Part shown: piece after piece, positions 5,344 to 7,283 of the stretch
How positions within the stretch are numbered: the stretch's first letter is position 1
Layout of the letters: each line of letters begins with the position of its first letter
Origin: Hymenobacter fodinae
GTDB lineage: Bacteria; Bacteroidota; Bacteroidia; Cytophagales; Hymenobacteraceae
NCBI RefSeq assembly: GCF_004745825.1
Contig: NZ_SRLA01000001.1
Location: forward strand, 806,001 to 870,000
Length of the DNA stretch: 64,000 bases
Direction of reading: 5' to 3'
Program-made: the position numbers and the translations under genes
The notes under the pieces: generated by a model
Told to the model about the DNA's origin: nothing
What the model saw: only the letters and a program-made list of their open reading frames with translations
The model's database searches: none

Positions 5344-6900
<1,557 letters not shown>

Positions 6901-6945
6901 TTAGCAGGAAGGGGAGGGGGCGCTGAGGAGCCGACCTATGGGCGA

Positions 6946-6987
6946 CTAGCTACAGCAACAGGCGCTGCAACAGCAGCGCATTCGCAT
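6946..6987 (-). CDS. Candidate poly-cysteine leader peptide upstream of metY
   Basis: Between the SAM riboswitch and metY, minus-strand ATGs at 6987 and 6981 open a 13-codon frame reading MRMRCCCSACCCS followed by TAG. Six of the last nine codons are Cys (TGC/TGT). A longer in-frame start exists upstream (ATG at 7113), but either version ends in the same Cys run. Poly-Cys leader ORFs are known in mycobacteria as cysteine-responsive attenuators; that role here is inference. I see no strong terminator hairpin with a T tract between 6945 and 6733, so any mechanism would have to be non-canonical or act on translation. Confidence 0.55.
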   Translation of the reverse strand: MRMRCCCSACCCS

Positions 6988-7144
6988 TCGCGCGGTAGTG
7001 TGCGCGGCCACCAGTGCGGTGGGGGCAACACAAAAACCCATCGGCGTGGCGGCATGCAGCAAGGCAGCCGGGGCAGATGGGTGTACAAGGGCGAAAGCGA
7101 GGGTGTTTTCCATGGCACTCTGAGTTATATGCCCCGCCAGCAAA

Positions 7145-7224
7145 TGCTTGGTCGGGCAGGAATTGGCACCTTTCGCGCGGTCGAAGGTTGCCAGCGGGTC
7201 AGGGAGCCTGTTCTCTCGCCGCTT
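7145..7224 (-). ncRNA. SAM riboswitch (SAM-I/IV superfamily aptamer)
   Basis: Read on the minus strand, the conserved core is in order: GAGAG, then CCTGACCCGCTGGCAACC, a short P3 hairpin (CCTTC/GAAAGG), then GGTGCCAATTCC and a closing CCTGCCC. GGCAACC followed by GGTGCCAATTCC is the hallmark of the S-box superfamily. The CTGACCCGCTGGCAACC form resembles the Bacteroidota SAM-I/IV variant. It starts about 55 bases after a good promoter and precedes metY, where SAM-dependent repression of methionine synthesis is expected. Confidence 0.85.
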
Positions 7225-7283
7225 CTGTATAAATCCTATGAAAACTACTCTGCCGCGAGCAGAGGAGTACCGTGTTGGTGTTG

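Follow-up and report, generated by a model that had tools for sequence, protein, structure and literature searches.

A predicted two-input sulfur leader in Bacteroidota couples a SAM-I riboswitch aptamer to a cysteine-ending upstream ORF

Introduction

Does the RNA leader of metY in Hymenobacter fodinae answer to one sulfur metabolite or to two? The usual picture of a riboswitch has its aptamer directly controlling either a terminator or the start of the downstream gene, and to our knowledge RNA regulation in Bacteroidota is poorly known. An initial annotation of a 64,000-nt stretch of the H. fodinae genome (contig NZ_SRLA01000001.1, positions 806,001 to 870,000; the window) had placed a short frame ending in a run of Cys codons between a SAM riboswitch and metY, and had proposed that this leader reads cysteine. 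We compared the leader with those of related metY loci and of other genes, and it is likely to be a two-input sulfur leader, in which translation of a Cys (and Met) leader-peptide attenuator is gated by a SAM-I riboswitch. Here the aptamer's target appears to be another sensor, a run of codons that reads the charged-tRNA pool, and a single transcript could balance SAM, the end product, against cysteine, the sulfur donor.

Results

A cysteine-ending uORF begins just past the SAM aptamer of metY

The metY leader of the window has the following parts, given in the order of transcription.

7122..7235, minus strand: SAM-I (S-box) riboswitch aptamer, RF00162 (Rfam 68.1 bits, gathering score 44.4, model positions 1-108)
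6946..7113, minus strand: conserved uORF of 55 codons plus stop, with ATG at 7113, 8 nt past the aptamer, and tail RMRMRCCCSACCCS*
7036..7082, minus strand: hairpin within the uORF (ACCCAUC..GAUGGGU) with a U-rich tail to 7029 (paired-arm covariation, 56 rows)
6979..6990, minus strand: CGA-AUG-CGA-AUG, Met and rare Arg codons just 5' of the Cys run (exact in 49 of 81 uORFs)
6952..6975, minus strand: six Cys codons, CCC-S-A-CCC (sequence; Cys enrichment of the tail over 81 uORFs)
6922..6950, minus strand: predicted hairpin engaging the uORF stop codon (stop-base pairing counts, 81 leaders)
6904..6921, minus strand: C-rich, G-poor stretch past the stop, a candidate rut-like site (base composition; weak folding)
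5344..6732, minus strand: metY, an O-acetylhomoserine sulfhydrylase-type PLP enzyme, the putative regulated gene (PF01053, 2.5e-136)

The frame is where the initial annotation had put it, running from an ATG at 6987 to the TAG at 6948-6946 as MRMRCCCSACCCS* with six Cys in its last nine codons, and it does lie between an aptamer recovered by Rfam upstream (7235-7122) and metY, which starts at 6732, downstream. Its start had to be moved, for the frame is open from an ATG at 7113 (full translation MENTLAFALVHPSAPAALLHAATPMGFCVAPTALVAAHTTARMRMRCCCSACCCS*), and 6987-6946 comprises only the last 13 codons and the stop; we take the ATG at 7113 as the start because relatives keep an ATG at that place. 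The 3' strand of the aptamer P1 helix, AUAUAA, lies immediately 5' of the uORF start codon, and 213 nt separate the uORF stop from metY. The observed tail has six Cys among the final ten codons of an ORF whose start is no more than about 32 nt from the aptamer, and it was not reached once when the leader was shuffled 20,000 times with dinucleotides kept. An ORF ending with at least six Cys in nine codons occurs once in the six frames of the whole 64 kb and not at all in each of 20 shuffles.

The uORF and its cysteine codons are conserved at metY loci

A metY protein scan of named genomes returned 221 relatives, the best 80 of which were analyzed; these are mostly from Hymenobacter, with one each from Solirubrum, an Adhaeribacter MAG, and a Microscillaceae MAG, and five from Mucilaginibacter (L199, L200, L201, L203, and the MAG L204; L numbers designate loci and leaders). 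The closest named metY is that of H. wooponensis, at 99%. All 80 loci have a SAM aptamer by Rfam. A start rule blind to cysteine, taking the first ATG 3-20 nt past the aptamer, yields a start in 79 of the 80, invariably 7-10 nt past the aptamer; L145 is the sole failure, and the reported aptamer end there looks misplaced. At least four Cys are present in the last 16 codons in 76 of these 79 frames, and the leader's densest TGY stretch is likewise confined to the aptamer-proximal ATG frame in 76 of 79. The exceptions on both counts are L174, L178 (RMRMCWGCRM*), and L194, which keep only two Cys. The predicted conservation of a Cys-rich frame in related metY leaders was thus borne out at most of the 80 loci, with the frame kept behind the aptamer and both Cys codons in use (TGT 280, TGC 195 over 81 frames, the window's included). 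What the comparison across loci establishes is the aptamer, the uORF and its frame, their spacing, the Cys codons, and the covariation of a hairpin within the uORF.

Over 81 uORFs, including that of the window, Cys accounts for 42% of tail residues against 1.3% in the body, and Met for 12.5% against 1.0%; for these statistics the uORF start is the ATG giving most Cys, which is the same ATG that the Cys-blind rule gives in all 79 loci it resolves. The proposal that the leader reads cysteine stands as far as the Cys tail is conserved, but it may be too narrow, since the tail is also Met-rich and methionine may be a second amino acid that it senses. Clusters differ between loci in how many Cys they hold and how these are spaced, yet they stay at or near the stop; Mucilaginibacter tails resemble CMCMCCCCC*, and the tail in the Microscillaceae MAG is CICCCCCCCCC*. 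Rare Arg codons are kept beside the Cys codons: CGA makes up 59% of Arg codons in uORF tails and 0.4% in metY coding sequences, and CGA-AUG-CGA-AUG is retained letter for letter ahead of the Cys run in 49 of the 81 metY uORFs, possibly to slow decoding or to make an RNA contact. Two further counts are given no weight as evidence: that of in-frame stops, which is zero by construction, and a frame test within the genus (34 of 43), which is spoiled by ties and by a GTG preceding the ATG in metY leaders.

The gap between uORF and metY is longer at some loci, and in eight of nine such loci examined it holds an ORF labeled peroxiredoxin-like from sequence reading (L162, L179, L180, L183, L187 in two pieces, L190, L192, and L205), which would share the same leader control.

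The same module precedes a defined set of genes within the genome and genus

The window's genome contains six SAM aptamers, and in four of the six leaders (those of metY, cysH, a permease gene, and an ATP-grasp-like gene) the aptamer is followed by a uORF ending with at least three Cys. The fifth leader (L006) has a weaker Cys/Met form, and the sixth, ahead of a metH-like gene, is without a Cys uORF. GTG is the start codon of the cysH and permease uORFs and lies, as a rule, 9-10 nt past the aptamer. In the window's genome, the cysH and permease copies match PF01507 and PF13520, respectively, and the ATP-grasp-like protein has no Pfam match at 1e-5; this name and those of the metH-, hom-, metX-, and cysK-like and TonB-dependent genes are labels from sequence reading.

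We extended the comparison to 89 SAM leaders from the genus and 110 from the phylum, taken from the best-scoring matches listed; since sampling was by score and, for the genus, partly by aptamer length, the fractions that follow are not population rates. The module is present in 41 of the 89 genus leaders sampled among the matches listed, and its presence follows the P1 helix closely: with TATAA as the P1 3' strand it occurs in 37 of 37, and with any other P1 in four of 52 (L070, L071, L123, and L124). Downstream of these 41 modules, again among the matches listed, are cysH (17), the ATP-grasp-like gene (9), metY (6), an amino-acid permease gene (5), and a TonB-dependent-like gene (1); no such gene was found in reach of L082, L099, and L069. 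Pooling the own, genus, and phylum leaders sampled among the matches listed, the module precedes cysH in 18 of 18 cases, the ATP-grasp-like gene in 10 of 10, and the permease gene in 6 of 6, and it is found ahead of none of the 75 metH- (0/43), hom- (0/12), metX- (0/14), and cysK-like (0/6) genes. This gene-class split within one genus is the best internal control.

A search of the window's genome with a poly-Cys pattern gave 27 matches, three of which sit behind a SAM aptamer (by regular expression), and the reversed pattern gave three; the pattern alone is noisy, and it accepts TGG, a codon that is not a stop, as well.

Aptamer and Cys uORF are joined at metY in eight families, and Cys/Met uORFs also occur alone

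Under the strict rule, a uORF was recovered in four of the 110 phylum leaders sampled among the matches listed, all four from the window's class. A metY search of 119 genomes of this class found close relatives in 26, at 28 loci, and a script flagged Cys-ending uORFs at 17 of these (L388 being doubtful); L378 and L386 were added after 21 of the 28 leaders had been read directly. In an Rfam scan covering the class metY loci other than L388-L393, a SAM aptamer lies ahead of the Cys uORF at 11 loci besides the window (L367-L369, L371, L373, L375-L377, L379, L381, and L383), which together with the window represent eight families. Spacing is looser outside the 80 loci described above, with the start 2-15 nt past the aptamer in 10 of the 11; the exception is L381, whose likely ATG overlaps the end of the aptamer.

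The pairing of a Cys leader with a SAM aptamer at metY, proposed by the initial annotation, is thus found in relatives, but the two parts also occur separately. Six metY loci have Cys/Met uORFs without a SAM aptamer in front (L374, L378, L380, L382, L386, and L387), and in one genus of the window's order (L208 and L211) the metY aptamer is kept ahead of short frames without Cys runs. L370 and L372 have the aptamer but no proper Cys run (in L213, which is the L372 locus, the run is shrunken), and L384 and L385 have neither aptamer nor run. At cysH, a uORF of this kind is present at five of 23 loci, namely in the window's genome, in L352 with a SAM aptamer, and in L355-L357 without; the SAM-less cysH uORFs L337 and L338, reached through the poly-Cys pattern, belong to the same genus as L355-L357, and L357 is the same place as L337.

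In four of the SAM-less metY leaders (L378, L380, L386, and L387) the Cys/Met leader peptides, single or paired, precede intrinsic terminators in the form of GC hairpins that end in U-runs, and by their anatomy these are ordinary trp-type attenuators; the peptides are in tandem pairs in L378, L380, and L387. L374 and L382 each have two Cys/Met uORFs and no scored terminator. No terminator was found behind the uORF in ten SAM-linked leaders outside the window's family, the match in L379 lying upstream of its aptamer. Comparison of the two sets indicates that the leader peptide does not depend on an aptamer for its presence, and that leaders with an aptamer usually have no terminator behind the peptide.

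A covarying hairpin within the uORF and a C-rich stretch behind it are candidates for the output step

A hairpin at about nucleotides 31-78 of the uORF has arms that covary between loci (ACCCAUC/GAUGGGU, ACCCCAC/GUGGGGU, and others). In the 56 colinear rows of the 81, 656 of 896 pair cells are kept (73%, and 30-42% when the structure is slid), and 119 cells are changed on both sides, with no column shuffle in 2,000 reaching either value; the structure derives from the window's own fold, which favors it over the slid versions, and related rows are non-independent. The T content after the hairpin is 3.4 per 8 nt, against 2.1 in the body, and in 41 of the 56 rows the 8 nt that follow contain three to five T. 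The structure could be a terminator or pause hairpin that is melted by the translating ribosome. A second hairpin is predicted at the uORF stop codon. In the predicted folds at least two of the three stop bases are paired in 57 of 81 leaders; for the stop of metY itself the count is 21 of 80. In most cases TAA faces U and TAG faces C.

Behind the stop, conserved terminators were not found: among 81 metY leaders eight score a terminator-like site, as do 10 of 45 uORF leaders from the own genome and genus. RNAalifold gave no consensus structure behind the stop (energy 0 on 57 sequences) and no conserved terminator/antiterminator pair, and folding of the whole leader of the window is no more stable than that of shuffles (z -0.46) and so tells little. 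A terminator-like site is scored in 29 of 50 SAM leaders of the own genome and genus that lack the uORF; the window has instead the U-tailed hairpin inside the uORF. Between 20 and 40 nt past the uORF stop, C averages 10.2 and G 2.0 of 20 nt (n = 56) and folding is weak. This C-rich, G-poor stretch looks like a putative Rho-loading site. Two points count against that reading: its distance may place it past the edge of a ribosome that has halted in the Cys run, and the GTG-start uORFs of cysH and other genes are without it (C 0.28, G 0.27, n = 36).

A model for sensing SAM and cysteine on one transcript

Several observations favor the two-input reading: the aptamer at 80 of 80 loci, the Cys tail in 76 of 79 frames, the split by gene class, the eight families, and the SAM-less attenuators. 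Against it stand the three loci with two Cys (L174, L178, and L194), the aptamers without a Cys run in L208 and L211, the shrunken run of L213, the looser spacing outside the 80 loci, and the failure to find a conserved terminator/antiterminator pair behind the stop. So does the substitution pattern: substitutions by codon position number 450/343/501 in the body and 84/65/82 in the tail (52 pairs), a third-position excess that is weak in the body and absent in the tail, so that outside the tail there is hardly any constraint on the peptide. We infer the stalling, the AND logic, and the output step from the sequence and layout of these leaders. When SAM is high, P1 would close and block ribosome loading at the adjacent uORF start, as the fixed geometry suggests; the unread leader would then lead to early transcription termination, leaving metY off. 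That SAM would act on initiation at the codon behind P1 is suggested by the near-fixed distance between aptamer and start, and by L225, where a metX-like start codon lies 11 nt past a P1 of the same type. With little SAM and abundant Cys-tRNA, ribosomes would finish the uORF and leave, and metY would remain mostly off. With SAM low and Cys-tRNA scarce, a ribosome would stall on the Cys codons, whose position next to the stop is the reason for reading them as a tRNA-Cys sensor, and RNA polymerase would proceed into metY. The Met codons of the tail suggest that charged tRNA-Met is probably sensed beside tRNA-Cys. The cell would thus probably check both SAM and cysteine supply before making MetY.

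Termination is the least certain step of this model. It could be carried out by Rho on the C-rich, G-poor stretch, aided by the U-tailed hairpin within the uORF, which translation would melt; candidates for the output are Rho, this hairpin, or translation.

Alternative roles for the cysteine run

The uORF might only relay the SAM signal, with its translation keeping the U-tailed internal hairpin (and Rho) from terminating, and with the Cys run being a slow or stop-proximal feature rather than a sensor. The strong covariation of the hairpin and the T residues after it in 41 of 56 rows fit this account, as do the rare CGA codons kept beside the Cys codons, which could slow ribosomes without any shortage of Cys. 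It leaves unexplained, however, why it should be Cys, of all amino acids, that 76 of 79 frames retain, and why Cys recurs where both the gene and the uORF sequence differ (cysH and the permease gene) and in SAM-less relatives with true terminators, and we regard such a pure relay as unlikely.

It is very improbable that the peptide itself acts, for example as a small metal- or thiol-binding protein, rather than the act of reading it. A Cys cluster could bind metal, and the uORF is conserved, but the body varies freely in sequence and in length, with 25 different lengths of 35-63 codons among the 81 frames, and the cluster differs in number and spacing while staying at or near the stop. Searches gave no NCBIfam match for four uORF peptides and no Pfam match for three.

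It is scarcely credible that an RNA or DNA element gave rise to the Cys run as a by-product, with an incidental frame: some of the window's Cys codons do lie within a perfect 7-bp palindrome (GCGCTGC-TGTT-GCAGCGC), but the densest TGY stretch keeps to the aptamer-proximal ATG frame in 76 of 79 loci and both Cys codons are used. The palindrome was rejected as the cause of the run, being exact in just three of the 80 other loci (L126, L130, and L147).

Discussion

Riboswitch-controlled uORFs and poly-Cys attenuators are known separately, and their union appears new; a literature search, in which subscription journals were thinly covered, found no report joining a SAM riboswitch to a Cys leader peptide. 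We lean slightly toward a fuller account in which this is a hierarchical two-metabolite RNA regulator of at least eight families in one Bacteroidota class. A Cys/Met attenuator would have come under a SAM-I aptamer that decides whether the peptide is read, with P1 taking over control of ribosome loading and the terminator being lost, to give a true gate for low SAM and low Cys at metY, cysH, the permease gene, and the ATP-grasp-like gene.

Of the traits of a trp-type attenuator, the window has the leader peptide with codons for the pathway's amino acid; it lacks alternative terminator and antiterminator hairpins behind the codon run, which L378, L380, L386, and L387 do have in the form of terminators. 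As for the SAM-I riboswitch, the window and all 80 loci have an RF00162 aptamer above the gathering score, and SAM binding is presumed from that match. The mgtA leader of Salmonella and E. coli, with its proline-codon MgtL, reportedly reads an ion and a charged tRNA through a short ORF; it likewise has two inputs, although its RNA, ligand, and amino acid are unrelated to those of the window.

The Cys-run leader peptides of actinobacterial cys operons, for which the part of the report available gives no conserved terminator hairpin and a proposal of Rho (PMC1262725), and the cysteine-responsive leaderless polycysteine short ORFs of mycobacteria (Canestrari et al. 2020, as cited in the available part of PMC13236596) resemble the window's uORF in that a short ORF ahead of sulfur genes closes with a run of Cys codons. 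Unlike the leaderless mycobacterial ORFs, the uORF of the window, in Bacteroidota, begins at a fixed spacing behind a 114-nt SAM aptamer, and its tail also has Met codons. The Mtb Mbox riboswitch controls translation of a uORF, with Rho-dependent early termination in the leader, and the accessible portion of that paper describes a Mg2+ aptamer and no amino-acid-sensing codon run (PMC12810186). By a criterion of our own analysis, a uORF start at a fixed distance from the aptamer (7-10 nt in 79 of 80, looser in more distant families), the window's leader is of this type, and it differs in combining a SAM aptamer with a Cys run; toward the Rho termination of Mbox it offers only the candidate C-rich, G-poor stretch past the stop. 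B12 riboswitches of Mtb are also combined with uORFs in one leader, as in the window, and the portion of that source at hand names termination-reinitiation, with B12 as ligand and without mention of a codon run (PMC11260477). Within Bacteroidota, the available parts of two reports mention leader-peptide attenuation of amino-acid operons in Flavobacterium psychrophilum (PMC9723704) and, for B. thetaiotaomicron, short ORFs that resemble leader peptides (PMC7366714).

The module is compact, and its presence four to five times in one genome and in eight families makes it a direct test bed. The shared leader may also aid annotation, joining cysH, metY, the permease, and the ATP-grasp-like protein in one likely sulfur regulon.

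A few other genes lie near leaders of this kind. The ATP-grasp-like protein (L001 and nine genus loci) is always downstream of a leader with a SAM aptamer and a Cys uORF (10 of 10 among the matches listed), and it is a candidate sulfur or thiol gene. The module is also found ahead of a TonB-dependent, SusC-like outer-membrane gene, so labeled from sequence reading (L006 and L032), with a weaker Cys/Met tail in L006. In L324 (family f6), where the regular-expression search returned no SAM aptamer, a uORF ending MHAMMRMCCCCCCC* lies 52 nt 5' of an ORF that sequence reading labels phytanoyl-CoA-dioxygenase-like.
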